DNA of 64,000 bases, from positions 372,001 through 436,000 of the forward strand of contig JAVJSV010000012.1 in the NCBI GenBank assembly GCA_040219235.1, written 5' to 3'. The DNA comes from Rhodospirillaceae bacterium. Lineage in GTDB: Bacteria > Pseudomonadota > Alphaproteobacteria > Rhodospirillales > Rhodospirillaceae. Positions 28,641-48,664 of this stretch are shown here, piece after piece. Made by a program: the position numbers and the translations under genes. The notes beneath the pieces are model-generated. The model was not told the DNA's origin. It made no database searches and saw only the letters and a list, made by a program, of their open reading frames with translations. Position 1 is the stretch's first letter. The number at the start of each line of letters is the position of its first letter.

Positions 28641-28706
28641 TCAATGGATTCCTTAATGACCTTTTCAAACGCAAAAATCTCAATCGAGGCAAACACAGCT
28701 TTGCCA

Positions 28707-28740: not shown

Positions 28741-28928
28741 AGAGCAATGTGTGTGCAAAGGTCTTTTTGCTATTCGTTGGCTCATAGCTAACTCGTTGAT
28801 GGTCCCGATCAGCTATCTTTACGTTGGTCTCGCCTTGTCCTCACCCTACTGCCTACACGAGAAGCTTGTAAATATCTGCAATCGGAGTTTGAGTAATCAA
28901 TTAGCGCAGCTATCAGAGGGAGTCTGAC

Positions 28929-29267: not shown

Positions 29268-29311
29268 TCAACCTTCTACATACGGGCGGGAACACACGGA
29301 ACGGCAGGAAA

Positions 29312-31383: not shown

Positions 31384-31391
31384 TTCGATAC

Positions 31392-31443
31392 ACCTGTATG
31401 GAATCCGATCAATTGCGATGGTGTACCACAAGCAACTACAGGT
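31392..31443. promoter_or_regulatory. Inverted half-sites ACCTGTA / TACAGGT before the AlpA-like gene
   Basis: ACCTGTA at 31392-31398 and its reverse complement TACAGGT at 31437-31443 flank the region just upstream of the AlpA-like start. The second half-site lies within a small hairpin GCAAC-TACAG-GTTGC (31432-31446). They could be an autoregulatory operator. Another inverted pair, CTCATGCC/GGCATGAG at 31557-31564 and 31596-31603, lies between this region and the integrase. Confidence 0.35.
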
Positions 31444-31657
31444 TGCAAGTAAAAAACGACGAGAAATGCAATAAAATCAACCAGTTAGATCCATTTGCGC
31501 CCCAGTTGTGAGGCAGCTATTACTGCATCTGCTACTACTGCGAGAAAGGGTGTTGCCTCATGCCTGATGGTATTCGAGGGTAAAGGGCAATATGCGGCAT
31601 GAGATACATACGATGACCATTGGTTAGCGTATGCACGAGTCTGGAAGGTTTAGGTGA

Positions 31658-32854: not shown

Positions 32855-32928
32855 TCTTGCCTGTTGCCTCTGGTATGTATGCCTTCGTTTTCCGGGCGCG
32901 TGACGGCCATTTTGTGTTTCGGGTGTTC

Positions 32929-32957
32929 GGGTACCAATTGGGTACCAAATGGGTACC
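32929..32957 (+). repeat. Right-end array of three GGGTACC motifs, 11-bp period
   Basis: Units start at 32929, 32940 and 32951, exactly 11 bases apart, with spacers AATT and AAAT. The last two units are identical to the left-end pair at 23145-23162, and the following bases CCACGACCG also resemble the left end (ACGAACCG). They lie 130 bases inside attR and 75 bases upstream of the integrase start. They are likely arm-type or excision-factor sites and may also regulate the integrase. Confidence 0.75.
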
Positions 32958-33087
32958 CACGACCGTTGAAATCGCGCGTATACAAATGTGGTTAAACGCG
33001 TGCAGCTAGTCCAGCAAATACTTGATTTAATTGGGTTTTTTGGGGTTTGACGTATGTTGTCGAAAATGGTCGTATACGCCTTTGGTG

Positions 33088-33137: not shown

Positions 33138-33229
33138 CTGCTCTTGTTAAAGTTTTTCGGGTTTCTCCAGTTCTTTCGACTTTTAAGTATGCTGGCCTAA
33201 TACGGTCTGCTGCCGGTATTGTGCTGTCC

Positions 33230-34432
33230 ATGAATTTGCACCCCGATTCACTTTCGGATTCTTCTGGTCAGCCGCGCCTTTTGATTCTGGTGACTGAGTA
33301 TTCCTACTTTTTATCCCACAAGTTGCCTCTGGCCTCTGCCGCGTCTGAGGCTGGGTTCGACGTTATTGTAGCGGCCCGCTGCGAAGAAGGTGCGACGCTT
33401 ACTCCTCCCGCGGGTCATACGTTTACCGTGGTTGCAGTGCCCTGGCGTCGGACCGGATCGATTGTAACGGCGGTTCTGAGGGTGATTCCCGATGTTCTTC
33501 GCATCCGCAGTGTTTTCGCTGATGTCCGGCCTGATGTGGCGCACTGTATCTCGCTCAAACCGGCCATCATCGGTGCCTTGGCAGCGTATCAGCAGCCTGT
33601 TCAGATGCTTCATTCCATCAACGGTTTTGGTTTTGTCTTTTATGCCAAGTCACTCTTGGCGCGTGCGATTCAAGCCTGCTGCGGCCTCATACTAAGCCGG
33701 TCCGTCGCATCCAGAACCGGACGAATTATCTTGCAAAACCAGGACGACTTAAGGCTTGTGGCTGAAGACTTTGGGGTTTCTGACAGTAAGCTCAGCCTTA
33801 TCCGAGGGTCTGGTATTGATCCTCTGGAGTATGAGAGCACGCCAGAGCCTGTCGGGCCTTCCATCACCTTTCTGATGCTGTCGCGATTGCTCTATATGAA
33901 GGGCATCGCGGTGGCGATTGATGCGTTTAAAATCTTGAAGGAGAGAGGTGTAAACGCAGCGCTGGTTATTTGTGGGGCACCTGACCCAAGCAACCCGTCA
34001 TCCATACCGCAGGAGGTGCTGGATGCGTGGTTTCAAATTCCGGGTGTGACATTTCGCGGCCAGGTCGAAGACGTAAGGCTTGCGCTCCGTGACGCCCATG
34101 CTGTGGTCCACCCAGCGCTCGGTGGTGAGGGGCTGCCCAAAGCCTTGTTGGAAGCAGCGGCCATGGCGCGGCCGATGATTGCCTCTGATATTGGGGGCAA
34201 TCGCGAAATCGTTTTGCATGAACAGACTGGTTTGCTGGTGCCGCCAGGTGACGCCGAAGCATTGGCTGATGCTATGGAACGAATGAGCATTGAGTCAGAA
34301 AACCGCCGATTTTGGGGCAATGCTGCCCGCGAGAAGGTGTCGGCGGAATTCTCTGTTGAGGTTGTGCGCCAGGCACATATTGAACTTTATGCAGGCTGCC
34401 GTGCGCAGTTAGGGTGCTCGTTAGCCAAATAA
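33230..34432 (+). CDS. Glycosyltransferase family 4 protein
   Basis: A 400-residue GT-B fold glycosyltransferase. The N-terminal acceptor domain starts at LLILVTEYSYFLSHKLPLA; the C-terminal domain has FLMLSRLLYMKGI, HPALGGEGLPKALLEAAAMA with the EGLPKALLE nucleotide-sugar motif, and DIGGNREIV. This is the GT4 pattern with retaining chemistry. It is the first gene of the polysaccharide locus, 92 bases beyond attR. I prefer ATG 33230; a GTG at 33221 would add three residues. Confidence 0.93.
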   Translation: MNLHPDSLSDSSGQPRLLILVTEYSYFLSHKLPLASAASEAGFDVIVAARCEEGATLTPPAGHTFTVVAVPWRRTGSIVTAVLRVIPDVLRIRSVFADVRPDVAHCISLKPAIIGALAAYQQPVQMLHSINGFGFVFYAKSLLARAIQACCGLILSRSVASRTGRIILQNQDDLRLVAEDFGVSDSKLSLIRGSGIDPLEYESTPEPVGPSITFLMLSRLLYMKGIAVAIDAFKILKERGVNAALVICGAPDPSNPSSIPQEVLDAWFQIPGVTFRGQVEDVRLALRDAHAVVHPALGGEGLPKALLEAAAMARPMIASDIGGNREIVLHEQTGLLVPPGDAEALADAMERMSIESENRRFWGNAAREKVSAEFSVEVVRQAHIELYAGCRAQLGCSLAK

Positions 34433-34631: not shown

Positions 34632-37600
34632 ATGACCGCCGGTAAACTCACCAGCGATGCCGGCACGTCACGGCCTGACAATAATATTCATTCGCGTCCT
34701 TCAGGGCCGGCGTTTCGGACGTATCTGTCAGAGGCATCGTTTTGGTCTCCCCAATATATTGAGCAATCTGCTTGGCTTGATCATGCGCCGTTTGCATTTT
34801 GGCTTATGGAGACCTTAAAGCCCGCGAGTTTGGTCGAGCTTGGAACCCATGGCGGCTATTCTTATTTTGCGTTTTGCCAAGCTGTACAGACGCTCGCACT
34901 TGATACACGGTGTTACGCCGTAGACCACTGGGAAGGAGATGTGCACGCGGGTCATTACGATGAAGACATTTTTAAACGAGTGTCGTCACACAATGATATG
35001 CATTATGCGACATTCTCCCGTTTGGTGCGCGCAACTTTTGACGAAGCCTTAGATCATTTTGAAGATGGTTCAATTGACCTTCTGCATATCGATGGTCGCC
35101 ACTTCTATGAAGATGTAGTGCATGATTTTGAAAGCTGGCGCCCAAAGCTGTCAGATCGCGCTGTTGTATTATTCCACGACACGAATGTTCGCGAGGGCGG
35201 CTTTGGTGTCTTCCGTCTGTGGGCAGAAATTAAAGATCAATTTCCGTCGTTTGAATTTCTCCATGGTCATGGATTAGGTGTGCTTGGTTACGGCTCAAAG
35301 TTGCTAGATGATATCTCTGCCTTTCTAGAGACGTCGCATGATCTCGATTGCGTGCGTGACATTCGACAAGCCTATGCGCGTTTAGGGTCTACCTATAAGG
35401 CGACGTTTGACGCGCGCCGCGAAAAATCTCATTTGGAAGCACGCCTGGCCGCACAAGAAGACGAATCCAAACGCCAACAAGCTGAAATACAGGCGCAAGC
35501 CTTACGCGCAAGTGAAGTGGAGCGCGGACTCGTCGAGAAACTTACGGGCATGGAGTCTAAGCTTGAGGCAGAGACGGTGTGGCGTGTTGCTCTTGAAGTG
35601 GAGTTGGAGGGACGCGAACGCACCATAAAAGCACTTAAGTCTTCAACCAGCTGGCGTGTAACAGCTCCAATACGCTCTTTCAAACGCTTGCCACAGATCA
35701 TCTTGGCCAGAGTTGGCTATTCAACAGCCAATGCCATTCGCGTTGTTTACCAAAAAACACCACTGCTTCAGAGCAGCAAGCGGCGTATTGCTGATTTGGT
35801 GTTTAGAGTCACTAAACCATTGTTGGGCCGAACGTCTATTTACCAAGATTGGGAGTTGTCTCGCACCGCTACGAAAAAGCCATCTGCCCGTCGCAAGCAA
35901 TACCTGCCTGAAAAAATCACGCCATGGGAAGTCGCGCGGCCAATTGAAAAAGACTACAGCGTTGCCGTGCCCTTTGGCTACGATCCCATCCCTGCGCCGC
36001 CACGTTTGGCGATTATTGTTCACATGTTTTATGAAAATATGACGCCAGAATTTCAGCGCTATTTTAAAAACATACCATTTCCCTTTGATGTTTTTGTTTC
36101 GACGAACACACCCGAAAAGAAGTCGATAATAGAGCAATTTTTTCAAGGTTGGGATCGGGGTAAACTTGAGATCCGCGTTACGGAGAATCGGGGGCGCGAC
36201 ATAGCGCCTAAACTTGTCGGATTTAAGGATGTTTACGACAAGTATGATTACGTTCTGCACTTGCATTCCAAGTGGTCTGATCATGCAGGCGTTCTGGCCA
36301 ATTGGCGCGGCTACATTCTTGAAAACATACTCGGCTCCAAGGAAATTATTTACAGCGTTTTTGAAGCGTTTGGTCGCGATGCTGACCTCGGTATTGTGGC
36401 GTCCCAACATTTCGAGCCGGTGCGTCATTGGATTAACTGGGGGGGTGATTTCAAGATCGCCCGGGCGCTCGCTGAACGTATGGGGATTTCACTGTCAGAC
36501 AAAACGGTACTTGATTTCCCATCTGGCTCTATGTTCTGGGCGCGTTCTGCAGCTCTGAAGCCGTTGCTCGAACTCGAATTAAAATTTGAAGATTTCCCGG
36601 AAGAGCGCAATCAAATTGATAAGACCCTCGCTCATGCGATAGAGCGCTTATACTTTCATGTGTGCGAGAAAGCCGGGTTTAGCTGGATGAAAATATCTCA
36701 TCGACCTTTGATGGAGAACACGCCGGCGATTGTTTCTATTGATCACCATGAATCGTTGAAGTTGTTCATGTATGAGCACGGTCTTACCTTGACGGGATCG
36801 AATCTCCCAGCGCCTCGCGTCTCTCACCCTGCTGCTGTTCCTGCGCCTGCAAAGGGCCTTGTTTCTCGGTTGCAAAAAAATGCACTTGGGTGTGATTTGC
36901 CGATCAATACTGACTTACATGTTTATGTTGGGGTCGTGACTTACAACAACTCCAAGGATCAGATTGATCGCATCACGACCAGTGCTCAAAAGGCCCTTAA
37001 GAAAGCGGGTTTTGCCACGGCTGGTCGTGTCATACTCATCGACAATGGATCGCCGTCTGAAGTTGCCACACCGGATAACCCCGCCGTTGTGGCGATTCCC
37101 AGTCAGGGTAACATCGGTTTTGGTGCGGCTCATAATCAGTTGATGGAAAAAGCGTTCAAACAGGGCGCTGATATCTATATTGCCGCGAACCCCGATGGGG
37201 CGTTCCACCCGGATGCGATCAGCGCGCTTGTCCAAATGATAGAGAATTTCGATGGCCGTGCGTTGGTTGAGGCCGTTCAATTTCCTTTGGAACATCCCAA
37301 AACCTATGACCCCTATACATTTGAAACAAGCTGGGTTTCTGGGGCCTGCTTGGCAATTCCCAGGGTGGCGTACGAAGAACTCGGTGGCTTCGATGAAGTG
37401 TTTTTTATGTATTGCGAAGACGTTGACTATTCATGGCGGGCTCGTGCGAATGGATTTGCTCTTAAAGTTTGTCCACGCGCTTTGTTTCTTCATGAAGTTA
37501 GCAATCGCCAACAGGACAATGCGACGTTGCGTATGATCTACACCTCAGGCGTCAGCCTGGCACGCAAATGGGGTCATGAAGACTTTGAGTCCTGGTTAAC

Positions 37601-37721
37601 AGGAAAGCTTACCGGTAGAGGTTTCCCTCTCCCAGAAGAACAACCTGTGCCAGTACCAAAAGAATGGCAAAGAGTTTCAAATTTCGAGCATCAGTTCAGT
37701 TTCTCTGAGGTACGTTGGTAA
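34632..37721 (+). CDS. Three-domain glycan enzyme: methyltransferase, RgpF-like and GT2 glycosyltransferase
   Basis: A 1029-residue fusion. Residues about 40-210 form a class I methyltransferase-like domain (LVELGTHGGYSYF and DLLHIDGRHFYEDVVHDFESW). A coiled coil follows (about 255-335), then SSTSWRVTAPIR, common before glycosyltransferase modules. Residues about 455-700 match rhamnan synthesis protein F (LAIIVHMFYENM, ENRGRDIAPKL, LHLHSKWSDH, FPSGSMFWAR). The C-terminal part (about 765-1000) is a family 2 glycosyltransferase with VGVVTYNNSKD, IDNGS and FMYCEDVDYSWRARANG. It probably builds and caps or modifies a rhamnose-rich glycan. Substrates are inferred from families. Confidence 0.9.
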   Translation: MTAGKLTSDAGTSRPDNNIHSRPSGPAFRTYLSEASFWSPQYIEQSAWLDHAPFAFWLMETLKPASLVELGTHGGYSYFAFCQAVQTLALDTRCYAVDHWEGDVHAGHYDEDIFKRVSSHNDMHYATFSRLVRATFDEALDHFEDGSIDLLHIDGRHFYEDVVHDFESWRPKLSDRAVVLFHDTNVREGGFGVFRLWAEIKDQFPSFEFLHGHGLGVLGYGSKLLDDISAFLETSHDLDCVRDIRQAYARLGSTYKATFDARREKSHLEARLAAQEDESKRQQAEIQAQALRASEVERGLVEKLTGMESKLEAETVWRVALEVELEGRERTIKALKSSTSWRVTAPIRSFKRLPQIILARVGYSTANAIRVVYQKTPLLQSSKRRIADLVFRVTKPLLGRTSIYQDWELSRTATKKPSARRKQYLPEKITPWEVARPIEKDYSVAVPFGYDPIPAPPRLAIIVHMFYENMTPEFQRYFKNIPFPFDVFVSTNTPEKKSIIEQFFQGWDRGKLEIRVTENRGRDIAPKLVGFKDVYDKYDYVLHLHSKWSDHAGVLANWRGYILENILGSKEIIYSVFEAFGRDADLGIVASQHFEPVRHWINWGGDFKIARALAERMGISLSDKTVLDFPSGSMFWARSAALKPLLELELKFEDFPEERNQIDKTLAHAIERLYFHVCEKAGFSWMKISHRPLMENTPAIVSIDHHESLKLFMYEHGLTLTGSNLPAPRVSHPAAVPAPAKGLVSRLQKNALGCDLPINTDLHVYVGVVTYNNSKDQIDRITTSAQKALKKAGFATAGRVILIDNGSPSEVATPDNPAVVAIPSQGNIGFGAAHNQLMEKAFKQGADIYIAANPDGAFHPDAISALVQMIENFDGRALVEAVQFPLEHPKTYDPYTFETSWVSGACLAIPRVAYEELGGFDEVFFMYCEDVDYSWRARANGFALKVCPRALFLHEVSNRQQDNATLRMIYTSGVSLARKWGHEDFESWLTGKLTGRGFPLPEEQPVPVPKEWQRVSNFEHQFSFSEVRW

Positions 37722-37724
37722 GCT

Positions 37725-38594
37725 ATGTCAGAGCAAATGGATGTCATTGTCAGGTTTCATGATGCGCGGCGTTTGTCTGAATTAAAACGTTGCGTGTTCT
37801 CTCTGACTCATCAGAGTTATCAGCCACTATGTGTCATTCTCGCAGTTCAGCGTTTTTCAGACTCAGAGATTAAGAGTCTACGCACAGCGTTAGATGAATT
37901 AAGTGATGGCTATGATCTTGAGATTAAGATTGTGAATTGGGAGAAGCCAGAACCAGTTGATGCCCGTTCGGCCCTGTTAAATCTTGGGATCGCCAATGCT
38001 GAGGGGCGCTACCTTGCGTTTCTCGATTATGATGACGTTATGTATCCAGAGGCTTATGAAACACTGATATCCCGTTTAAAGACAACGGACGCAGCAATCG
38101 TATTCGCATCGGTGCGCGTTATGCTGTTGGATGTTTATGAGGATTTCTTTTATGCCGCTGAGCAGGTGACGCCAGGTTATCGCGGGTCGGGTCTGATTGA
38201 CCTACTCCGCAACAATTTTTGCCCGTTGCACAGCTACGCTATTGATCGTCATAAAATACTGAATGCTGAACTCTCGTTCGATACTGTTCGAACGATGCAA
38301 GAAGACTATGATCTTCTTTTGCGGATATGTGCCAAGTATGCGTCAGATTTTGGGCTCATCGGCACTCAAATTGGTGACTACAATTACAAATCAGATGGCA
38401 GTAATACGGTGCCAACCGGGGGGGCTCTGTCTGGCGAAGTGTTGGCTCAACTCGAAGCTGTCAAAACAGCGATGGAAGTGCGGCGACGGACTACAGCAGT
38501 CTCTCTGGACGTCCAGAATTCCCTCGGACTTTCTGAAGCCATAGAGGGGGCCACGATTCGTGATGTTATTGATCGTGTTGCTAGGGGCGGATGA
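37725..38594 (+). CDS. Glycosyltransferase family 2 protein
   Basis: A 289-residue protein with a GT-A fold pattern: MDVIVRFHDARRLSELKRCV at the start, NLGIANAEGRYLAFLDYDDVMYPEAY with the DxD-like DYDD motif, and a C-terminal acceptor part with EDYDLLLRICAKYA. It follows the large fusion gene by three bases and probably shares its transcript. It is expected to add one sugar of the repeat; donor and linkage are unknown. Confidence 0.9.
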   Translation: MSEQMDVIVRFHDARRLSELKRCVFSLTHQSYQPLCVILAVQRFSDSEIKSLRTALDELSDGYDLEIKIVNWEKPEPVDARSALLNLGIANAEGRYLAFLDYDDVMYPEAYETLISRLKTTDAAIVFASVRVMLLDVYEDFFYAAEQVTPGYRGSGLIDLLRNNFCPLHSYAIDRHKILNAELSFDTVRTMQEDYDLLLRICAKYASDFGLIGTQIGDYNYKSDGSNTVPTGGALSGEVLAQLEAVKTAMEVRRRTTAVSLDVQNSLGLSEAIEGATIRDVIDRVARGG

Positions 38595-38675
38595 GGTGAG
38601 GTGCGCGAGAAATCACATTTATAGAAGCGATTTAAGTGTTGTGAGCGCGCAATCCAAGATGTGTTGCTGGTCATT

Positions 38676-39527
38676 ATGACAGCTAAAGCTCAGCCAGGGC
38701 TGCACCACAATTCTGTTCAGGACATCATTATCCCTGTTGCTGTCATTTTTAGGCACTACCTCATTTTCCGCCAGTTTCTCCAGCGCGCAATAGCGCGCCG
38801 CTATCGCCTTAGCGCTTTTGGTTTGCTGTGGACAGTGTTGGTGCCTTTGTTCACGCTGGCGATTTATACCCTGGTCTTCGGGGTCGTCTTGCAAAGCCGC
38901 TGGGCTGGCGATGCGGGGAGCAGTGATACCAGTTCATTCGGACTCTACCTTTTTTCTGGCCTAATTGTCTTTTGGCTGATGGCAGATGTGGTTGGGGCAG
39001 CGCCATCGGCTATTGTTGAATATACAAACCTCGTCAAGAAGGCCGTGTTTCCGCTTGAAGTTTTGCCACTGATCGCTGTGGGAAGTGCTGTCTTTCATGC
39101 TTTAATCAGTACGGCAGTCTTGCTGGCAGCGATTTTGGTTTTTAAAGGGGAGATCCCTGGAACCGCATTCTACGTGCCTTTAATTCTTTTTCCCTTTGTG
39201 CTGCTGCTCATGGGCTTTGGTTGGTTGTTGTCAGCTATTGGTGTTTTCTTCCGCGATATACAGCACATCGTCGGGTTGTTGATGACGGGTGTTTTGTTTC
39301 TTTCCCCGATTTTCTACTCTATTGAACGTCTTGGCCCGGCCTTAAAATTGGTCATTCTGCTCAATCCGGTGACGTTTATTGTAACGCAGATGCGCGCTGT
39401 TCTGTTGGATGGGGCAAGTCCTAATTGGCTTGGACTTGCGTTATATTTCGGCGTCGCTTGGCTTATTGCTTCGACCGGACTGGCGTTTTTCCGTTACGCC
39501 CGCAAGAGTTTCGCTGATGTCCTCTAA
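38676..39527 (+). CDS. ABC-2 type polysaccharide exporter permease (Wzm-like)
   Basis: A 283-residue inner-membrane protein with six predicted helices. The start of the membrane domain (RRYRLSAFGLLWTVLVPLFTLAIYTLVFG) and the amphipathic segment before it match Wzm/TagG-type permeases that move lipid-linked polysaccharide to the periplasm. I chose ATG 38676; a GTG at 38661 would add five residues. It overlaps the Wzt-like gene by 11 bases. Confidence 0.93.
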   Translation: MTAKAQPGLHHNSVQDIIIPVAVIFRHYLIFRQFLQRAIARRYRLSAFGLLWTVLVPLFTLAIYTLVFGVVLQSRWAGDAGSSDTSSFGLYLFSGLIVFWLMADVVGAAPSAIVEYTNLVKKAVFPLEVLPLIAVGSAVFHALISTAVLLAAILVFKGEIPGTAFYVPLILFPFVLLLMGFGWLLSAIGVFFRDIQHIVGLLMTGVLFLSPIFYSIERLGPALKLVILLNPVTFIVTQMRAVLLDGASPNWLGLALYFGVAWLIASTGLAFFRYARKSFADVL

Positions 39528-40914
39528 CACGCATCCTGCTTCATCCCAGGTATCGAATTATGTGGTGACAGCGCGCGGTCTCTCCAAATCTTACACCCTT
39601 TATCAAAGATCATCGGAGCGGCTTTTACATCTGCTCTTGCCGTGGCGGACATACCCGGCTTTTGAAGCCCTAAAAGATGTTTCTTTCCATGTTAGGCGGG
39701 GCGAGACCGTTGGTATCATTGGTGAAAATGGGGCCGGCAAATCCACATTACTTCAAATCGTGACGGGCACCATTTTACCTACTACCGGCGAAGTGCAGAT
39801 TTCCGGTCGGGTCGCGGCTTTGTTGGAGTTGGGCGCCGGTTTTGAACCAGACTTTACTGGGCGCGAGAATATCTATTTGAACGGAACGATTCTGGGGCTG
39901 ACTCGCCGTCAACTTGACGAACGCATGGATGACATCATTGCCTTCTCAGAGCTTGAAGAATTTATTGATCGCCCTGTTAAAACCTATTCCAGCGGTATGT
40001 TCATGCGCTTGGCTTTCTCTGTGGCCGCCCATGTGGATGCCGATGTGCTCATCATCGACGAGGCCCTGTCTGTCGGCGACGCCCGCTTTACGCAAAAGTG
40101 CATGCGTTTTTTGAATGACTTCAAACAACGTGGCTCCATTCTATTTGTCAGTCATGATCTGGGCGCTGTGGCGGGGTTGTGTGATCGTGCGATTTGGTTA
40201 GAGCACGGTAAAATCCAAGCGGAAGGTGATGCCGGTCGCATTTGCGAACAATACGTTGAATCTCTTTTCAGAAACACGCCACCAGAAATCACGGAAGGCG
40301 GTTCAGAACGGCACGTACCTGTGCAGCTAGGCTCCAAGGTAAGTGGTGCTCAGGCGAACTATACCTTAAGTGGGAATTCGGTAGAGATAGGAGGTGGGGA
40401 GTCGCCGCCGTTCTCGAAGCCAGGAATCACAACTTGTTCGCCCTTTAGTAAAACTGCGAACAGTTTCGGTAGTGGTGGTGCCAGCGTCATTGATGCCGGG
40501 TTATGGGATGTCCAAACGGGGGGGCGCTTAACGCAGGTCACTGATGGGCAACAGGTTGAGCTTCGCATTGTTGTCGTTGCTGATGAGGACGTTAAGCGAC
40601 CCATTTTTGGTTTTTATATTAAAGACCGGCTGGGTCAGAATCTGCTGGGTGAGAACACCGTGACGGATCGTGTGGCAGTGCCCTCCATACCTGCGGGTGA
40701 GTCTATGGCCGCGTGTTTTTACATGCGGTGGCCAGCTTTGATGACGGGAACCTATGCGTTAACGGTAGCGATCGCGGATGGGGTGATGGACGATCATATA
40801 CAGCGCCATTGGATGCATGATGCTGTGATGTTCGAGGTCATTTCGAGCGCGGCACGCCATGGTTTGGTCGGGCTAGATATTTCAAAGGTTACGGTAGATC
40901 GCTGTTTTCAGTAG
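39517..40914 (+). CDS. ABC-type polysaccharide exporter ATPase with C-terminal glycan-binding-type domain (Wzt-like)
   Basis: A 465-residue protein. The ABC domain (about 1-245) has Walker A GENGAGKST near residue 70, the signature YSSGMFMRLAFSVA and Walker B VLIIDEALSVGD. A Ser/Gly-rich linker (about 255-320) leads to a beta-sandwich domain (about 330-465, starting ASVIDAGLWDVQTGG) like the C-terminal domain of Wzt that recognises the finished O-antigen end. This suggests export coupled to chain-length or terminal-cap recognition. The start ATG lies inside the end of the permease gene. Confidence 0.93.
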   Translation: MSSNTHPASSQVSNYVVTARGLSKSYTLYQRSSERLLHLLLPWRTYPAFEALKDVSFHVRRGETVGIIGENGAGKSTLLQIVTGTILPTTGEVQISGRVAALLELGAGFEPDFTGRENIYLNGTILGLTRRQLDERMDDIIAFSELEEFIDRPVKTYSSGMFMRLAFSVAAHVDADVLIIDEALSVGDARFTQKCMRFLNDFKQRGSILFVSHDLGAVAGLCDRAIWLEHGKIQAEGDAGRICEQYVESLFRNTPPEITEGGSERHVPVQLGSKVSGAQANYTLSGNSVEIGGGESPPFSKPGITTCSPFSKTANSFGSGGASVIDAGLWDVQTGGRLTQVTDGQQVELRIVVVADEDVKRPIFGFYIKDRLGQNLLGENTVTDRVAVPSIPAGESMAACFYMRWPALMTGTYALTVAIADGVMDDHIQRHWMHDAVMFEVISSAARHGLVGLDISKVTVDRCFQ

Positions 40915-40925
40915 TCAATACAGCA

Positions 40926-41930
40926 TCAATCTTTCGCGTTTTGTCTCAAGCGTATTTTTCGGTTAAAAAAATCACGAGGCCGCCAACTCAGCCATCGGCT
41001 GAGGCTCAACGACGAGAGTCTACGATTTTTCTGTATTGCGCTTCGTTTCATCCAGGCTTGTTTGCTGTTGCGGAGTCCTTCCCAGATGCCTTTCATGCGC
41101 GCTGATTTCGGATTTTTTAGGATGCCAATAATCTGAATAAGAAAAAAACCGGGAAGCGATATGATAAAAAACAGAGCGGGCATATTTTTCAGCAACATCC
41201 ACCATTGATTCCGCGCCATCAGATAGGCCGCGAAATCAGATTTACCCTCAAAGCTTGCACCGCCGACATGCTCAACAACGGCTTTGGTGTTTATCGCGCA
41301 ATTAAATCCTGCGAGGCGCAATCGAAAGGACATATCGACATCCTCATAGAAGCAAAAAAATGTTTCATCAAATTCACCGACATCGCGGAGAATCTGAGCC
41401 CGATATAACGCCGCGGCCGCGCAAACCCCAAAGCAATAGGCAGGTTTGTCATTAAGAAGGTTTGGCTGCTGTGTCTGTCCCCGCCAAGCTTGCCCGGTAA
41501 TCAGAAGATTGTCACCCAGGCCGTCGATATAATTTCGGTCCTCGGCTTTCAATTGCAGTGAGCCAAGTGCCGCAATACTTGGGTTTTTATCGCCCATTGC
41601 CACCAATTCTGCCAACCACTCTGGTTCGGCAAAGGCGTCTGGGTTAAGGGCGGCCAGATATTCACAATTAGTGTTATTCAGCGCTATGTTCATGGCCTTT
41701 GCAAAGCCTAAGTTCTCGTCCATTTCCATATAAGTGATCGGGAACCCGGCATTCTCAACTATTGCTGTTGGCTTCACATCCGAGTCGTTATCAATAAGAA
41801 CGACGCAAAAATCCTTATATGTCTGGGATTTCAGGCTACTGAGGCACTGTGGCAGAGTGCCAGATGAGTTGTAGGTCACAATGGCAATGCAAACGCGTGG
41901 CTGCTTATCGGCACTCTTTTGTGTATTCAT
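40926..41930 (-). CDS. Glycosyltransferase family 2 protein
   Basis: A 334-residue inverting glycosyltransferase of the rhamnosyltransferase-like type. Motifs are IAIVTYNSSGTLPQCL, LIDNDSD, NLGFAKAMNIAL, LNPDAFAEPEWL and the acceptor-side FFCFYEDVDMSFRLRLAGF. A C-terminal membrane-associated helix follows (LFFIISLPGFFLIQIIGIL). I start at ATG 41930, where the typical N-terminus begins; the frame remains open upstream. It is transcribed against the neighbouring genes and diverges from the GT2 gene at 41976. Confidence 0.91.
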   Translation of the reverse strand: MNTQKSADKQPRVCIAIVTYNSSGTLPQCLSSLKSQTYKDFCVVLIDNDSDVKPTAIVENAGFPITYMEMDENLGFAKAMNIALNNTNCEYLAALNPDAFAEPEWLAELVAMGDKNPSIAALGSLQLKAEDRNYIDGLGDNLLITGQAWRGQTQQPNLLNDKPAYCFGVCAAAALYRAQILRDVGEFDETFFCFYEDVDMSFRLRLAGFNCAINTKAVVEHVGGASFEGKSDFAAYLMARNQWWMLLKNMPALFFIISLPGFFLIQIIGILKNPKSARMKGIWEGLRNSKQAWMKRSAIQKNRRLSSLSLSRWLSWRPRDFFNRKIRLRQNAKD

Positions 41931-41975
41931 AACCTTAAGTGTTGCTTGGGCATGGTTAGTTACCCGGAAACTCGA

Positions 41976-42941
41976 ATGACCGACGTTGATATTGTGATCG
42001 TAAACTATAAATCTGCTGCCCACACCGTAAATTGTGTCGAGGCGGCAAGCCGTGTGGCGCGTCAAGACGATGTGGCGATAGGTATTTTCGTTGTCGATAA
42101 CGGCGGCGATGCGATTGATTTACAGGCTGCCTTAAAGACACGCGACGAACTGCATTTCATTAGAAATACCACAAATGATGGATTTGCGGCGGCCTGCAAT
42201 GCTGGTGCCCAGCTCGGTGCTGCGCCGTATATTTTATTCCTGAATCCTGACGCCCTTTTGCATGAAGGGGCTCTTAAGGGCTTTACCGCTTTTCTGAGTC
42301 AACCGGAAAACGCGGCCACGGGAATCGTGGGCCCAGAGATCAGAGATTCTCAAGGAGACCTCGTGCCGTCATGCTCGGACGCACCAACACTGATAAACCT
42401 TATTTTACGGTCTACCGGTATTCACGTTTTGCATTCAGGTCTTGGCGGCGATCCGTATTTGCCGCTCTCTCGTCATCAAAATAGTGGACCCGCCGACCAA
42501 GTCATGGGGGCTGCGTTGATGATTCGACGCCCTCTTTTCCAGACTCTTTCTGGGTTTGATGAATCTTTTTTTGTTTACTATGAAGATGTCGATCTGTGCG
42601 CCCGGGCTAGGGCTGCAGGCTCTACGTGCTATTATCTCAAATCATCAACGGTGACCCATATTGGGCGCGCTTCGAGCTCCCAAGACTCTGGATTCTCATT
42701 GGCCTTACACATTCGCAGCAGAGTGACTTATGCGCGTCGACATTTCGGCATAGTGGCCAGTGTCTTTCTGGCGTTGGTTTGCAGTGTTGTTGAATTGCCC
42801 GCGCGGCTGGCACAGGCGCTTTTGGGACGTGGGTCCATGCCGGTCTCTGGTGTTGTGCGTGCGTATGTTTTGTTGACGCAAAACATTGTAAATGGCCGTG
42901 GTCTTCCCGTTCCCCGCGCCAGTTTAAAGAAACAGTGTTGA
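41976..42941 (+). CDS. Glycosyltransferase family 2 protein
   Basis: A 321-residue GT2 enzyme: MTDVDIVIVNYKSAAHTVNC, NDGFAAACNAGAQLG, FLNPDALLHEGAL and FFVYYEDVDLCARARAAG, with a C-terminal hydrophobic segment near residue 255 (SVFLALVCSVVELPARL). GGAA lies six bases before the ATG. It is a paralogue in layout of the convergent GT2 at 40926-41930. The two starts are 45 bases apart, so their control regions overlap. Confidence 0.91.
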   Translation: MTDVDIVIVNYKSAAHTVNCVEAASRVARQDDVAIGIFVVDNGGDAIDLQAALKTRDELHFIRNTTNDGFAAACNAGAQLGAAPYILFLNPDALLHEGALKGFTAFLSQPENAATGIVGPEIRDSQGDLVPSCSDAPTLINLILRSTGIHVLHSGLGGDPYLPLSRHQNSGPADQVMGAALMIRRPLFQTLSGFDESFFVYYEDVDLCARARAAGSTCYYLKSSTVTHIGRASSSQDSGFSLALHIRSRVTYARRHFGIVASVFLALVCSVVELPARLAQALLGRGSMPVSGVVRAYVLLTQNIVNGRGLPVPRASLKKQC

Positions 42942-42951
42942 TCGTAAACAT

Positions 42952-44025
42952 ATGGCAATCTCAGTCCTCGCATTGACCAGATATAGCGGAATCGGTGCGA
43001 GCAGTCGGGTCAGATTTCTGCAGTACATTCCCTATCTGAAGCGTGACGGATTCAATGTTGATGTCCAATCTCTGTTTTCTGATGCATATCTAACCAGACT
43101 GTATTCTGGTCAAGGACGTTCACCTTTCGCTTTGCTTGGGTTTATGGCCGTGCGTTTGAAGAGAATGATGAGTGAATCCGATTATGATCTCATTTGGTTG
43201 CAGCGTGAACTCATGCCGTTCATTCCGTTCGCCATTGAGTATAAGCTTTTGAAGCATCGGCCTTTGATTATCGACTTTGATGATGCGCATCACCTTTACT
43301 ACAAGAATATATCATCGACAGCGCTCCGACGTATGTTTTCAAACAAAACAGATGATCTCATAAGGTGTGCTGATGCAGTCGTCGTCGGAAACGAGACGCT
43401 GGCCGACTACGCGGCACGCACAGGGGCTAAGAACATCTCATTTGTTCCCAGTGCTGTGGACGTAAAGAAATATCAAACATTGATTCAGTCCCATAGCGGC
43501 TCGGGTAGGTTAACACTGGGGTGGATTGGGACTCCCGTTACGGCAGCCCAGTCTCTGCCGTTGATTCGGGAACCGCTGCGCAAATTCTTATCTGAATCTG
43601 GCGCGTCGTGCCTATTAATGGGCGCCGATCCAAATGTTGACTATGGTTTTCCCGCGCAGCACCTCAGTTGGAGCGAAACGGGCGAGGTTCAGTTTATGTC
43701 ACAGATTGATGCCGGTCTTTGCCCGATGGAAGATACCGAGTGGAACAGGGGCAAAAGCGGTTATAAAATCATTCAGTATATGGCTGCAGGAAAACCATCT
43801 CTAGTGTCGCCCATCGGTATTGCAGCAGAAATTGTGAACCACAAAAAAACAGGGCTGCACTGTAAAACAAAACAGGATTGGCTGGCCGCGTTCAATGAAC
43901 TTCGAGACCTAGGGTTAAGGTCAGATCTTGGCACCCGGGCCCGCGCTGAGGCTTTGAGTAAGTATGATGTGTCCATTTCTGCGAAGAAAATCGCAGAGAT
44001 TTTTACATCTGTGATGCGCAAATAA
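42952..44025 (+). CDS. Glycosyltransferase family 4 protein
   Basis: A 357-residue protein beginning ISVLALTRYSGIGASSRVRF, an acceptor-domain start typical of a subgroup of GT4 enzymes, with LIIDFDDAHHLYY in the middle and the C-terminal donor region GYKIIQYMAAGKPSLVSP. The EX7E-like motif is atypical. It starts ten bases after the GT2 gene and is followed one base later by the O-antigen-polymerase-like gene. Confidence 0.86.
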   Translation: MAISVLALTRYSGIGASSRVRFLQYIPYLKRDGFNVDVQSLFSDAYLTRLYSGQGRSPFALLGFMAVRLKRMMSESDYDLIWLQRELMPFIPFAIEYKLLKHRPLIIDFDDAHHLYYKNISSTALRRMFSNKTDDLIRCADAVVVGNETLADYAARTGAKNISFVPSAVDVKKYQTLIQSHSGSGRLTLGWIGTPVTAAQSLPLIREPLRKFLSESGASCLLMGADPNVDYGFPAQHLSWSETGEVQFMSQIDAGLCPMEDTEWNRGKSGYKIIQYMAAGKPSLVSPIGIAAEIVNHKKTGLHCKTKQDWLAAFNELRDLGLRSDLGTRARAEALSKYDVSISAKKIAEIFTSVMRK

Positions 44026-44026: not shown

Positions 44027-45232
44027 ATGCAGCCTTGGATGTCATATGGCCTTGCGCTGTTTTTTGTGCCGCTTGCCGCTTGGAGCAGAGATGCTACCGT
44101 CGTTATTCTCACTCTTACAGTTGTCGCCATTACGCACTCACAATGGTCAAGCCGGGCCGTCTTATGGAGGTCGGTGTTTTCATTATCTGCTGCGAAGTTT
44201 TTGAGCTTGATGATGCTCTTTGCTGGACTCTCTCTCGTTTGGAGTCCGCAATTCTCGCCTCTTCCGTGGGCGCAAGCCAGCTTAACGATCTTCCTTTGTA
44301 TGATGCTGTGTGCAGGCATGCAGCGCTTTCAGGTTGAAGGCATTTGGAAAGCGATTAAGCCAACAGTTATGGCGGGCGGCGCCCTCTTGGCCGTACTGTT
44401 GGCCGAGCGCCTCACTGGTGGCTTCTTTGTTGGTTTGCACCGTACCGAGCAAACAGCAGAGCAATTATTCAACGTTATGAATGGTGGTTTGGTCTTGATG
44501 GCGTGCATGTCAATACCAGCCATGTGTCTGCTGCGGTTAAAAACCAGCAGTTGGACTTGGCCTGTTATACTTTTTTGTCTGTGCTTTGCTCTTGGCTTGA
44601 GCTACCGCATGGATGCTGTGCCTGTGGCTATGCTGGCTGCCCTGCTGTCCTTTTTGCTTGTCCAAAAGTGGGGTGTGCGCATGGCTGTCGCAATTATGGT
44701 TTTGATAGGAATCGTATCTGTCGGCTGGGCTTTGTTGGCAGCGATATGGGCTACGCCAACCCTTCAGGTTTGGTTTACGGATAACATCCATCCCAACTGG
44801 GGGCACCGCATAGCGATTTGGGGTCGTGCAAGTGAGTTCATTCATCAAAGCATTCTGTTTGGCCATGGTTTTGATGCGGCGCGTACGTTAGGCCAAACCG
44901 CAGGGTTAATTCCTGATCCTGCAGGAAGAACATCATTTTTGCACCCCCACAATGGTATGATTCATTTGTGGTTGGAGTTGGGTGGCGTCGGAGTTGCCGT
45001 TTTTATTGCTGCTTTGATTGCGTCAGTGCGGTCAGTTCTTTCTAAGCGCAGCAACCGTTGTATTGCCGCCTTAGTTACGGGCACGTTCAGCGCAACCGCG
45101 ACCATCTGGCTCCTCAGTTTCGGGGTTTGGCAACCCTGGTGGATTGCCGTGCTGGGGCTGACGACGGCTGCTGTTATGGGTGTCGTTAAACTAGCGGCGG
45201 CGGATACCCCACGACAGTCAGTTAACCTATGA
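44027..45232 (+). CDS. O-antigen ligase / polymerase-like membrane protein
   Basis: A 401-residue protein with about ten membrane segments and a large periplasmic loop containing [11 protein letters not shown] and [21 protein letters not shown] followed by a hydrophobic helix is the hallmark of the Wzy/WaaL (O-antigen ligase) superfamily. It may join O-antigen to lipid A core, or polymerise repeat units. The ABC exporter in the same locus favours the ligase role. Its last six bases overlap rmlA. Confidence 0.85.
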
Positions 45233-46102
45233 AGGCGAGTCGTTAGCCAGATCAACGAGGTACTGACCATAACCGCTTTTCTTAAGTGGATCGCTGAGTG
45301 CAATTAACTGGTCTTTACTAATCCAACCGTTTGTGAACGCTATCTCTTCCGGTACGCAAATACGTTGTCCTTGCTGCTTCTCAACGGTTTGTACAAATGC
45401 GCTCGCTTCAACAAGGCTATCGCAGGTCCCGGTATCAAACCACGCAAAGCCGCGACCGAGGCGCTCAACTGTTAACGCGCTGTGCTCCAGGTAAACCCGA
45501 TTAACATCAGTAATTTCGAGCTCACCTCGTGGGCTCGGTTTTAGGGTTTTTGCAATATCGATCACTGCATTATCATAGAAGTACAGACCCGTTACAGCCC
45601 ATTTTGATTTCGGCGTCTCTGGCTTTTCTTCTATGGACGTGGCTTTGAAATCTTTATCAAAGGCGACTACACCGTAGCGTTGAGGGTCACGTACCTGATA
45701 TCCAAAAACCGTTGCTCCTTGAGTGATGGCGGATGCGCGGCGGAGTTTCTCCGTCAGTCCATGACCATAAAAAATGTTGTCCCCAAGTGCTAAGGCGCAG
45801 GTGTCTTGGCCAACAAAGTCTTTCCCGATGATAAAGGCTTGCGCCAATCCATCTGGGCTAGGCTGTTGTGCATACTGGATGTTGATGCCCCAAGCGCTTC
45901 CGTCAGAGAGCAGGTGTTGAAAACCATCGGCATCTTGAGGTGTTGTGATGATAAGAATATCTTTGATCCCGGCAAGCATCAGCGTACTCATTGGGTAGTA
46001 AATCATCGGCTTGTCGTAGACGGGCAGCATTTGCTTGGATACAGAATGTGTAATGGGGTGAAGCCGTGTGCCAGACCCTCCCGCCAATATTATTCCCTTC
46101 AT
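45227..46102 (-). CDS. rmlA: Glucose-1-phosphate thymidylyltransferase
   Basis: First enzyme of dTDP-L-rhamnose synthesis. The 291-residue protein starts [19 protein letters not shown] and has [25 protein letters not shown] and [10 protein letters not shown], all diagnostic for RmlA. I start at ATG 46102; the frame extends upstream but that part belongs to the rmlD end and spacer. It is last of the four rml genes (rmlC-rmlB-rmlD-rmlA in transcription order). Confidence 0.97.
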
Positions 46103-46125
46103 CGTATATCCTTTGCGATTTCGGC

Positions 46126-47013
46126 TTAACCCACCAAAGTTTTGCTGAGCATGTCCGCGAGGGCTTGGTCCCAAGGGCGAAGGGTTACACCATAGGTTTC
46201 TGAAAGTTTAGAGCAATTTAAAATAGAGTTGGCTGGCCGCCGTGCTGGCACTGGATATTCAGATGTTGCAATGCCGTTTACCGTTGGTTTTTTGCCCGTT
46301 ATCGGTGCTGCCAACTCAATAATTCTGTTGGCAAATTCATGCCAAGTGGTTTGGCCTGCGTTCGCACTATGGAATGTACCGAATCCGTGAGTGGGAACAT
46401 TTTCATTCGTCAACTGCGCAACGATCTCAAAAATTCCAGTTGCTAAGTCATTAGCAAATGTTGGCGAGCCATGCTGATCATTCACAACGCGCAAGGTGTC
46501 TTCGGACTCCGATAGCCGCAGCATCGTTTTCACAAAGTTCTTTCCATGAACTCCATAGAGCCAAGCCGTCCTGAGAATGATGTGGTGGTTGCATATCTCA
46601 CGTATGGCGTCTTCTCCTGCTAGTTTGCTCGTGCCGTAGACGCCAAGAGGAGAGGTTGAGTCCGTCTCGCTGTAAGGTGTGCGCTTTGCACCATCAAACA
46701 CATAGTCAGTAGAGACATGGATTAGCGGCACGCCAAGTTGCACGCAGGCCGAGGCTAAATTAAGCGGACCGTTCCTGTTGACAGAAAAAGCTGTCTCAGC
46801 GTCGTTTTCTGCTTTGTCCACGGCGGTGTAAGCGGCGGCATTGATGACAACATCTGGCTTAGCAGACAAAACAATTCGGTTAACGGCCTCTTTATTAGTG
46901 ACGTCCAAAGAAGCTCTGTCATACCCTAGCACAAAAATATTTGGGTCATTCGTGTGTTGGGTAAGCGCGTGCCCGAGTTGACCAGAAGCGCCGGTGATGA
47001 GGATCTTTTTCAT
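46126..47013 (-). CDS. rmlD: dTDP-4-dehydrorhamnose reductase
   Basis: Reduces the 4-keto group to give dTDP-L-rhamnose. The 295-residue short-chain dehydrogenase has the NADPH motif [10 protein letters not shown] near the N-terminus, [20 protein letters not shown] and the catalytic YGTSKLAGE. It lies 23 bases before rmlA and 11 after rmlB on the same strand. Confidence 0.97.
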
Positions 47014-47024
47014 CTCGGAACCAC

Positions 47025-48089
47025 TTATGTTTCGGGCTTATCTGACAGACCCAGTCGTTCACCGGCATATTTTCCACTCCGAATATCCTGCCACCAGTTC
47101 TGGTTCTCTAGGTACCATTGGACGGTTTTTCTCAGGCCGCTCTCAAAGGTCTCAGATGGGTACCAGCCCAGTTCGGTGTTAATTTTCGTGATATCCATCG
47201 CGTAGCGCGCGTCATGCCCGGGGCGATCTGTGACGAATGTAATCAAATCTGCAGTAGGCGCATCCGGTGAAAGGTATTCATCAAGTAAAGCGCAGATCGT
47301 GCGGACAACATCAATATTGGTGTGCTCTGCTTCACCCCCAATATTGTAAACCTCACCCACCCGGCCTTTTGTCACAACGGTCCATAAGGCGCGCACATGA
47401 TCTTCGACATGGAGCCAGTCGCGCACATTTTCGCCGGTGCCATATACCGGCAGGGGTTTGCGCTCCAGTCCGTTTAAAATCACCAACGGAATCAATTTTT
47501 CAGGAAACTGATGCGGACCATAATTGTTAGAGCAATTGGTGGTGACGACTGGCAGACCATAGGTGTGATGCCAAGCACGCACCAGATGATCTGATGACGC
47601 TTTAGACGCGGAATAGGGAGAGTTTGGTGCATAAGGTGTTGTTTCCATAAACAATCCCTCTTGCCCAAGGCTGCCATATACCTCGTCCGTTGAAATGTGG
47701 TGGAAGCGGAACGTATCTTGCTTTTCTGAAGGTAAACCCAACCAATAACTCTTCGCAGCCTCAAGCATGGCATACGTGCCAATGATGTTGGTTTCCATGA
47801 AAGCGGCGGGACCGTCGATTGACCGGTCGACATGACTTTCGGCAGCCAGATGCATCACCACATCGGGTTTTTCAGTTTGTATAAGATCAGTGACAAAAGC
47901 CTGGTCGCACACATTGCCTTGAACAAATGTGTATTCGGGCCGCTTTGAAACTGAGTCCAGAGACGAGAGATTGCTGGCGTAGGTGAGCGCATCTACATTC
48001 ACAACCTCTGCGTTGACTTCCTCTATGAGAAACCGAACCACCGCTGAGCCTATAAACCCCGCGCCCCCTGTAACGATCACTTTTTTCAT
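47025..48089 (-). CDS. rmlB: dTDP-glucose 4,6-dehydratase
   Basis: Makes dTDP-4-keto-6-deoxyglucose. The 354-residue extended SDR has [35 protein letters not shown] and the catalytic pattern [28 protein letters not shown] is characteristic of RmlB. It overlaps the end of rmlC by four bases. Confidence 0.97.
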
Positions 48090-48664
48090 AAGGGGGTATC
48101 TTCTATAGAAAAATAATTCTGTAATTCAGAAAGCGTCGGGTGAGTCTTGTCCTTGTCAGATATAATCGCATCCATTCCTAATGTGGGCCAGTCAATACCT
48201 AGATCGGCATCATCCCAAGCAAGGCCCTTATCGCATTCACGCGCATAATAATTTGAGACTTTGTAAAGAACCTCGGTATTCGGTTCCAAGGTCATTAGGC
48301 CATGTGCGAAACCAATCGGAACAAACAACTGATTCCATGAACTGGCAGAAACGATAGTTGAAACATGTTTCCCAAAAGTTGCAGACCCTTGGCGAATATC
48401 CACTGCGACTTCAAAAATAGCTCCGTTTGTGACACGCACGAGTTTGTGCTGTGCGAAAGGCGGAACTTGGAAGTGCAGTCCTCTAAGCGTTCCTTTGTCT
48501 ACAGAAAGAGAGTGATTGTCTTGCACGAAGGTGGTTTCTATCCCGATGCCTTCTAGAGCTTTCGTTGAGTATGTCTCAGAGAAGAACCCTCTATGGTCCT
48601 CATGCTTGACGGCTTTGATCAGTTTGACGTCTGGGATTTCTAATTGTTCAACTACAAAGTTCAT
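48086..48664 (-). CDS. rmlC: dTDP-4-dehydrorhamnose 3,5-epimerase
   Basis: Epimerises carbons 3 and 5 of the 4-keto sugar. The 192-residue cupin has [31 protein letters not shown] (with catalytic His in GLHF) and [13 protein letters not shown]. It starts the rml run on the minus strand and is 35 bases from the membrane protein gene upstream. Confidence 0.97.

Follow-up and report, generated by a model that had tools for sequence, protein, structure and literature searches.

Introduction

ORF6 of the Klebsiella pneumoniae O7 cluster is a biochemically tested protein that unites terminator, ruler, and polymerase in one chain (PMC11231755). It has an N-terminal methyltransferase (MT) terminator, a central coil, and two C-terminal glycosyltransferase (GT) modules; the protein described here has the same layout, with a putative terminator and a putative coil, and both are encoded in clusters with wzm, wzt, and rml genes, the chain on which O7 ORF6 acts being rhamnose-containing (PMC11231755). 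From its MT, O7 ORF6 continues into an AmiN-like kinase and a CBM ahead of the coil, neither of which would fit into the short gap in our protein, and it makes a methyl-phosphate; its first polymerase module is of the GT2 type, whereas ours is of the RgpF type (PMC11231755). The two MTs are further set apart, by description, by their fold neighbours, which are of the MeT1/COMT type here and CgnL for O7 according to PMC11231755. K. pneumoniae O12 WbbB is likewise a single chain in which termination and ruler functions accompany two polymerase modules, but its terminator is a beta-Kdo transferase and not an MT (PMC11231755).

As presented in excerpts of PMC3482155, WbdD of Escherichia coli O8/O9a shares with our system a coil (putative here), a partner Wzt whose C-terminal domain reads the cap there, and a methyl-based cap, which we infer for the present case. 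The O8 WbdD is an MT only and performs direct O-methylation; in contrast to our protein, WbdD has no GT modules and recruits WbdA (excerpts of PMC3482155). According to excerpts of PMC9883506, MeT1 of M. hassiacum methylates the 1-OH of methylmannose oligosaccharides; unlike the MT reported here, it is a standalone enzyme whose site of action is the 1-OH end of a polysaccharide from mycobacteria.

In the open-licence literature, we found no report of this MT type as a terminator, nor the MT/RgpF/GT2 fusion architecture; in the excerpt consulted, the Klebsiella paper PMC5320592 mentions a rhamnan synthesis gene, not this fusion. The initial annotation had spoken of three normally separate activities, a point that is not supported, since O7 ORF6 is a published case of a single chain carrying an MT, a coil, and a polymerase (PMC11231755). 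In other words, the MT-coil-polymerase format is known, and our protein looks like a new form of it, set apart from O7 ORF6 by its MT type, its RgpF module, and the absence of a kinase. If our reading is true, the terminator/ruler strategy extends to an MT type without a reported terminator role in the literature searched.

The Polysaccharide Locus and the 1029-Residue Protein

The window, that is, the whole stretch of 64,000 nucleotides that was analysed, contains an uninterrupted frame from ATG to stop (34632..37721, + strand) encoding 1029 residues. Its surroundings form an ABC-transporter polysaccharide locus that encodes Wzm, a Wzt carrying a Wzt_C domain, rmlABCD, and an initiating sugar transferase. 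A GT4 glycosyltransferase (33221..34432, +) is located upstream, at the same position as in the genus members. Downstream on the + strand, the Pfam search identified a GT2 glycosyltransferase (37725..38594), the ABC-2 permease Wzm (38661..39527; ABC2_membrane, 6.3e-22), the ATPase Wzt (39409..40914; ABC_tran, 3.8e-22; C-terminal Wzt_C, 8e-34), further GT2 (41919..42941) and GT4 (42952..44025) glycosyltransferases, and a Wzy_C/O-antigen ligase family protein (44027..45232; 1.7e-11). The true start of Wzt is probably downstream of the listed ATG (39409), and its best PDB sequence matches, 8dku and 7k2t, are both named "ABC transporter". The rmlABCD genes for dTDP-L-rhamnose supply (45227..48664) lie on the - strand in the order rmlA (45227-46174), rmlD (46126-47013), rmlB (47025-48089), and rmlC (48086-48664), their names being assigned from their Pfam families; L-rhamnose would be among the sugars added to the chain. 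The protein at 50472..52343 (+), which combines GT4 with Bac_transf (an initiating phosphoglycosyltransferase), is the sole PF02397 match in this genome. The ORFs at 48700-50448 and 52446-54248 gave no Pfam match at 1e-5, and an unrecognised enzyme may be present among these two neighbours.

From the N- to the C-terminus, the Pfam search and the structure model place an MT, a predicted helix, an RgpF-type module, and a GT2 module. As a matter of anatomy read from sequence and model, the terminating-enzyme-type domain and the polymerase modules lie at opposite ends of the helix. The fusion of MT, RgpF-like, and GT2 domains in one protein, as originally annotated, is confirmed by the Pfam domain search and by the conservation of the GT2 motifs; nor is it a common annotated family, since no NCBIfam model scored above its cut-off with the 1029-residue protein. 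In RefSeq, proteins of this kind go under the name "rhamnan synthesis F family protein". Homologues with 62-69% identity were found in all six other genus genomes searched, in five as a single ORF and in the remaining one (G005) broken by a contig end; because these genomes also encode it, the long chain is not an assembly artefact. A PDB sequence search with the whole protein returned no match, and the full-length structure model is weak (mean pLDDT 48) and was left out of the fold claims.

The RgpF-type module (residues 440-745; 35949..36866, +) was delimited by Pfam and motif alignment. The Pfam RgpF match (PF05045; residues 458-682) is strong (E 9.5e-56; 189.9 bits against a cut-off of 25) but takes in just the C-terminal half of the model (profile positions 271-502 of 503). 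In the homologue alignment, NRGRD is invariant and HLHSK is conserved save for one S/T column. The GT2 module (residues 753-1015; 36888..37676, +) was assigned from Pfam, NCBIfam, and motif alignment. Three GT2/GT21-type Pfam matches at about 879-960 all fall below the cut-off (best 26.7 bits against 27), and the DNG, NPDG, and YCEDVD motifs of the module are invariant in all 11 aligned homologues. A PDB sequence search with this module gave no match.

The Methyltransferase Domain

The MT domain (residues 48-215; 34773..35276, +) is supported by a match to Pfam Methyltransf_24 (PF13578; residues 68-184; E 7e-27; score 94.8 bits, cut-off 26.3), by invariant residues, by an AlphaFold model, and by fold matches. 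Its motifs are VELGTHGG at 68, D98, HIDGRH at 152-157, and HD at 182-183; both homologue alignments (13 and 11 rows) show no variation at the SAM-motif residues or at D154/H157/D183. It is the most conserved region among six genus proteins (mean pairwise identity 88%), and among 11 homologues it shows 77% pairwise identity with 0.0 gap columns.

The AlphaFold model of residues 25-345 has a mean pLDDT of 92.3, and a fold search with it assigns the predicted MT fold to the SAM-dependent O-methyltransferase type. Judged from this model, the domain resembles metal-dependent O-methyltransferases, with D154/H157/D183 as putative metal residues. Its fold neighbours include MeT1, a polysaccharide 1-O-methyltransferase (Z 17.4, rmsd 2.8, 180 aligned), and SpnH, a rhamnosyl 4'-O-methyltransferase (Z 16.3, rmsd 3.0, 181 aligned). 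MeT1 (6g7d, 6g80) ranks first both when the MT profile is searched against PDB sequences (E 4e-4) and in Foldseek. WbdD is absent from the eight PDB sequences matched by the MT profile (A3) at E <= 1, and neither WbdD nor TylF is seen among the fold matches listed for the MT model.

It should also be mentioned that standalone relatives of this MT occur on viral contigs, without the coil. Judging from these, an MT of this type can also serve another function.

Proposed Mechanism

We think it likely that the protein polymerises an ABC-exported, rhamnose-containing surface polysaccharide and controls its length within one and the same chain, and that in this protein the MT O-methylates the chain end at the far end of the helix and the methyl group both stops growth and tags the chain for Wzt_C. 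Put simply, the protein probably makes surface sugar chains of a defined length and finishes them ahead of export. Elongation of the lipid-linked chain at the membrane would fall to the RgpF and GT2 modules and continue until the chain reaches the distal end of the roughly 100-residue helix, which would measure about 15 nm if straight. There, the MT would directly O-methylate a sugar hydroxyl of the non-reducing end, no phosphate being involved. Once in place, the methyl would halt growth and serve as the tag recognised by Wzt_C, followed by export through Wzm/Wzt. The agreement of the layout with that of the tested O7 ORF6 and its class supports this capping model (PMC11231755).

Direct O-methylation fits best because the gap between the MT (48-215) and the helix (238-337) is only 22 residues and because a search for kinase families in the 1029-residue protein and the cluster genes scanned found none. 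A methyl-phosphate cap, which would need a kinase, was rejected on these grounds: the chain has no room for one, and nothing matched. If the model is true, plain O-methyl caps are predicted on rhamnose polymers of Rhodospirillaceae-type bacteria.

Association with Wzt_C and the Site of Methylation

The MT might instead decorate internal sugars of the repeat unit (e.g., as O-methyl-rhamnose), with the helix as a mere tether and the length set otherwise. We regard this as unlikely, even though it is the strongest of the alternatives. An O-methyltransferase fold, with neighbours such as SpnH and MeT1, cannot separate internal from terminal sugars, and the coil-less viral relatives suggest that the MT can act alone. 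Against internal decoration stand the match of the layout to tested terminators, the length-variable spacer that is kept between the MT and the GT modules, and the genomic company of the gene.

Of 44 genomes in which the MT was matched at E <= 1e-15, 36 reach E <= 1e-80 (the own genome among them) and form the strong set in which the last point was evaluated. Eight genomes with weaker or broken matches were excluded (G082, G393, G486, G490, G567, G705, G714, and G783), and the incomplete copy in G054 (L070) was left out of the genome counts. Wzt_C lies within 20 kb of the MT on the same contig in 27 of the 36, and the two are on separate contigs in six more; no Wzt_C match was obtained in G095, G690, or G828, in the last of which the MT gene runs off the contig. 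Outside the family, Wzt_C is within 5 kb in 9 of 12 strong-set genomes. None of the eight excluded genomes has Wzt_C within 20 kb, with G490 and G567 having one elsewhere. Few genomes have a Wzt_C (42 of 385 in the class sample), and its co-presence with the MT gives, uncorrected for kinship, p 8e-7 in the class sample (7e-6 without the own genome) and p 7e-7 in the family. The initial annotation had proposed that the MT might cap chain ends for recognition by Wzt_C; this stands as the best explanation of the invariant residues, the fold, and the proximity of Wzt_C, with the action of the MT on the chain end and the reading of the methyl group by Wzt_C as its presumed steps.

The recognition step is not universal among relatives, because those in G486, G567, and G490 adjoin short transporter ATPases without Wzt_C, as do those of the E. 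coli capsule loci.

The Helix as a Putative Ruler

Between the MT and the RgpF module, the structure model predicts a single helix of about 100 residues (238-337; 35343..35642, +), a putative coiled-coil ruler; most residues of the model as a whole have pLDDT > 90. The annotated coiled coil corresponds to this predicted helix; its heptad periodicity, on the other hand, is not above that of shuffled sequences (265 of 500 shuffles reach it). The same holds for L034, L125, and L126 (412, 293, and 385 of 500), and the periodicity is above shuffles in a Klebsiella relative and two E. coli relatives. Tandem repeats were sought in the window helix and none were found. Among 11 homologues, the helix evolves fast and is rich in indels (39% pairwise identity, 31.5 gap columns); with such low identity and so many gap columns compared with the MT, it behaves as a spacer.

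Hence a second alternative, in which the MT caps the chain, the helix merely links or oligomerises, and the length depends on how polymerase and MT compete kinetically. The missing heptad signal in the window helix is in its favour, as is the GLG-to-SxSWR spacing, which varies between 97 and 225 residues among fusion members with both motifs found. However, the length of the O antigen in the O9a and O12 systems is reportedly determined by that of the coil (PMC11231755), and related E. coli alleles differ in sequence by clean in-frame coil losses. We therefore consider capping without a ruler improbable, more so than internal decoration, and favour the reading in which the helix would set the chain length.

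The helix is followed by a basic segment beginning with STSWRVTAPIR (residues 338-412; 35643..35867, +). Its net charge of +11 over 75 residues and its best helical moment of 0.58 (moderate) are suggestive of a membrane-proximal part, for which it is a candidate.

Variation of the Glycosyltransferase Modules

The MT is N-terminal throughout the strong set, and the C-terminal part is variable: RgpF+GT2, RgpF+RgpF+GT2, GT2+GT2, GT2+GT4, GT2+GT2+GT4, GT4+RgpF, and one GT2 were observed, and in some relatives no GT module was found C-terminal of the MT. Such variation is expected of a cap-and-ruler cassette serving different polymers. Counterparts without the MT also exist, as GT2-only matches and as a 453-residue RgpF protein in L063, and these could suggest an opportunistic fusion whose passenger MT gives nothing specific to this polysaccharide, but the recurrence of the MT with different GT modules, its rank as the most conserved region, and its invariant SAM and putative metal residues make this very hard to believe.

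Relatives in E. coli Capsule Loci

The same MT family, with a far longer coil, was also found in E. coli group-3-like capsule loci. Ten of 139 matched plasmid records (H5, H7, H8, H12, H15, H18, H21, H22, H23, and H27) and three of 59 matched E. coli genomes (H35, H36, and H52) were examined among the matches listed. The region concerned carries no annotation in H22 or H27; for L173 (H22), the ORF served for the measurement, and L175 (H27) has no SxSWR motif. The plasmid copy H15 shows 52.7% identity over residues 37-314, with the MT-coil order of the window protein and an SxSWR motif closing the coil. The E. coli capsule relatives differ from our protein in their longer coil (the GLG and SxSWR motifs lie 486-582 residues apart), in the lack of any GT module found, and in a transporter ATPase without Wzt_C. 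As excerpts of PMC13171606 and PMC10433991 indicate, E. coli group 3 capsule clusters carry "putative methyltransferase" genes; by position and content, we infer that the H15-type gene is the one meant in these excerpts.

More tentatively, and with somewhat less than even confidence, we suggest that the MT and helix make up a portable "cap-and-ruler" cassette, fused to various unrelated polymerases across the Pseudomonadota and also at work in E. coli group 3 capsules, where the longer coil might set chain length although the ATPase lacks a cap-reading domain. If this is true, O-polysaccharide rulers are linked to E. coli group 3 capsules, and the control of capsule polymer length could become directly testable with existing natural E. 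coli alleles, whose coil losses might serve as ready-made ruler variants. As far as can be told from the alleles compared, these losses comprise one 32-residue tandem unit and a 96-residue block.

Domain organization of the fusion protein

The open reading frame at 34632-37721 (+ strand) encodes 1029 residues, in which Pfam places Methyltransf_24 at residues 68-184, the C-terminal half of the RgpF profile at residues 458-682 and sub-threshold GT2-type matches near residues 879-960; no NCBIfam model scored over its cut-off for this protein. In an alignment of 11 homologues, residues E69, G71, G75, S77, D98, D154, H157, H182 and D183 of the methyltransferase domain (MT) are invariant, and they stay so when the comparison widens to 13 MT domains; NRGRD and HLHSK (S/T in one column) are retained in the RgpF region, NPDG and YCEDVD in the GT2 region. 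The Pfam matches and these motifs confirm the proposal of the initial annotation that MT, RgpF and GT2 share one chain. Its statement that the three activities are normally separate has to be withdrawn, since ORF6 of Klebsiella pneumoniae O7, in the passages of PMC11231755 that describe it, already unites a coil and two GT2 modules with a methyltransferase-kinase at its N terminus.

Polysaccharide locus

Beside the fusion gene lie a GT4 gene (33221-34432) and a GT2 gene (37725-38594), and Pfam identifies around it, in this order, Wzm, Wzt with its C-terminal domain Wzt_C, GT2, GT4 and a Wzy_C/ligase-type protein. Beyond the ligase-type gene, rmlA, rmlD, rmlB and rmlC occupy the opposite strand and are followed by a GT4-Bac_transf protein, the sole PF02397 match in the genome; the nearby ORFs 48700-50448 and 52446-54248 had no match in the Pfam scan. 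Because the dTDP-L-rhamnose genes adjoin the locus, its polymer is likely to contain rhamnose, and the RgpF module would, by its family name, be a rhamnosyltransferase.

A GT2 gene at 40926-42065 (- strand) lies antiparallel within the operon and shares sequence with the start of the gene after it, and members of the genus have opposite-strand GT2-like ORFs in the matching place. Immediately upstream of the locus are a tRNA-Arg gene (23002-23078), a large Eco57I/MmeI/PglX-like DNA methylase ORF (24783-28640), an AAA_25 ORF (29999-31162) and a tyrosine integrase (31658-32854). The region 23002-33000 is possibly an integrated island adjoining the locus.

Distribution and association with Wzt_C

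The gene is present in all six other genomes of the genus that were searched (identity 62-69%; contig ends interrupt the copy in genome G005), and the surrounding operon is kept in the five with enough flanking sequence. At E <= 1e-15 the MT profile matched 24/73 family, 10/385 class and 15/398 phylum genomes, samples that share a few genomes, so that 44 distinct genomes match overall. Of the 24 family genomes, 15 have RgpF-GT2 as the C-terminal part (split over contigs in two, cut by a contig end in two), most of these assignments being made by similarity to the window modules and not by Pfam. The other family genomes have RgpF-RgpF-GT2 (1), GT4-RgpF (3), GT2-GT2 (2) or GT2-GT4 (2); no GT module was detected in the C-terminal part of the remaining one. 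The 12 strong matches (E <= 1e-80) outside the family comprise GT2-GT2 (5), GT2-GT2-GT4 (2), GT4-RgpF (1), a single GT2 (1), two with no GT found and one truncated at the edge of its contig. Throughout the strong set the MT is N-terminal.

In a relative of 1329 residues (L062:7124-11113) the RgpF module is doubled in tandem, with the coil before it and GT2 after it, which looks like the gain of one linkage-forming module. Two genomes of the same phylum, G567 and G490, have the MT at the C terminus of a 607-residue protein (L131:9592-11412 and L132:9719-11542), preceded by a GT2 domain in the one scanned; short ABC transporter genes that lack Wzt_C lie close to both genes.

Wzt_C was matched in 35 of the 44 genomes with any MT match and lies within 20 kb of the MT on one contig in 27 of them. 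In the strong set it lies within 20 kb in 27/36 and on a separate contig in 6/36; there was no Wzt_C match in G095 and G690, nor in G828, whose gene runs off its contig. In the class sample, where 42/385 genomes have Wzt_C, it occurs in 7/8 strong-MT genomes versus 35/377 others (Fisher p 8e-7, or 7e-6 without the window's own genome, ignoring relatedness). In the family, over the cut-off, the figures are 23/24 MT genomes versus 18/49 others (p 7e-7, likewise ignoring relatedness).

The helix between MT and RgpF

Structure prediction for residues 25-345 from 18 alignment rows (window, related loci and viral-contig relatives; mean pLDDT 92.3) gives a Rossmann-type methyltransferase followed by a single helix at residues 238-337; the full-length model was poor. 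Among the 11 RgpF-GT2 homologues, mean pairwise identity is 77% for MT, 39% for the helix, 66% for RgpF and 63% for GT2, and the helix averages 31.5 gap columns, compared with 0.0-4.3 for the other regions. The flanking motifs GLG and SxSWR lie 97 to 225 residues apart in those fusion members where both were found, the set to which length measurement applies; SxSWR is absent from all four GT4-RgpF members.

Heptad periodicity was scored in 14 coils, each against 500 shuffles, by counting the shuffles that reached the coil's score. It was lacking in the window protein (265/500) and in the proteins of L034 (412), L125 (293) and L126 (385), clear in the Klebsiella relative (0) and two E. coli relatives (1 and 0), weak in L054, L062, L064, L116 and L121 (24 to 49), and weaker still in L127 (89) and L069 (110). 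It should be mentioned that a control stretch of the window's RgpF gave 15/500, and the weak positives therefore mean little. The coiled coil originally described at this position is well supported as a helical spacer and, in the window member, stays putative as an oligomeric coiled coil.

Methyltransferase fold and probable chain termination

The best solved Foldseek match of the MT model is MeT1 of Mycobacterium hassiacum. The 50 rows listed by VIA-align, in majority O-methyltransferases, have Z of 16.0-18.2 and include MeT1 (Z 17.4, rmsd 2.8, 180 aligned) and the rhamnosyl 4'-O-methyltransferase SpnH (Z 16.3, rmsd 3.0, 181 aligned). According to PMC9883506, MeT1 acts on mannose oligosaccharides, which it methylates at the 1-OH, and its assays contained MgCl2; D154, H157 and D183 of the window protein may bind metal or act in catalysis.

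In anatomy the window protein resembles O7 ORF6 and the E. coli O8 protein WbdD. The relevant passages report that ORF6 adds phosphate and methyl-phosphate to terminal rhamnose in vitro (PMC11231755), and that WbdD, without a kinase, methylates sugar hydroxyls directly (PMC3482155). A methyl-phosphate terminator of the O7 or O9a type is ruled out because the window protein has no kinase. The two MTs are also set apart by their descriptions, the O7 domain having CgnL as nearest fold in that account (PMC11231755), whereas the window MT has neighbours of the MeT1/COMT type. That the MT caps chain ends, as first suggested, is still the best reading of a putative cap: the domain would probably terminate the chain by direct methylation. 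The helix may then act as a ruler, the less certain half of the proposal.

Relatives in enterobacteria, Azospirillum and viruses

Two IncX5 plasmids, one from Pantoea dispersa (L164:1258-5124) and one from Klebsiella michiganensis (L169:12004-15870), encode 1289-residue MT-coil-RgpF proteins beside wzt, together with two GT2 genes. The Klebsiella copy adjoins rml genes, wzm and wzt with Wzt_C. In the Pantoea copy, the one scanned, a HAD hydrolase match follows RgpF; it may be part of a ribofuranosyltransferase like the one reported in O4/O7.

When the Pantoea gene served as query, 59/5426 E. coli genomes matched (50 chromosomal, 9 plasmid), in the MT part only. In the annotated copies opened (chromosomal H35, H36 and H52; plasmid H15, H18, H21 and H23), the MT gene comes after genes for an ABC permease, an ATP-binding protein and a KpsE-like or sugar/polysaccharide transporter. 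These appear to be the genes of published passages on E. coli capsule clusters, which propose no terminator role. Long-coil MT genes occur in group-3-like capsule loci (L165:13902-16349, L171:2502-5237, L174:2502-5141 and L167:13861-16587). In seven proteins measured, GLG and SxSWR are 486-582 residues apart, with a proline-free coil and then a short C-terminal part; Methyltransf_24 is the sole Pfam match in the two scanned, and the L165 transporter ATPase, the one scanned, lacks Wzt_C. Tandem Repeats Finder marked a 96-bp repeat in L171 and L165. Of the related alleles on plasmids, L174 is missing 32 residues at this repeat, and L165 is without a separate 96-residue block that L171 has, both being clean in-frame losses inside the coil.

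The long form is also present in Azospirillum sp. TSA2s, with 50.6% identity across 95% of the query, and adjoins ABC permease, ATP-binding and rfb genes there. MT relatives also occur in nineteen viral contigs of IMG/VR (L145-L163), in most as standalone proteins of about 180-280 residues without a coil; cultured-phage records gave just 4 and 49 matches, which are distant (about 30-34% identity among the matches listed). In L145 the MT adjoins a phage glycosyltransferase and a weak tail-protein match.
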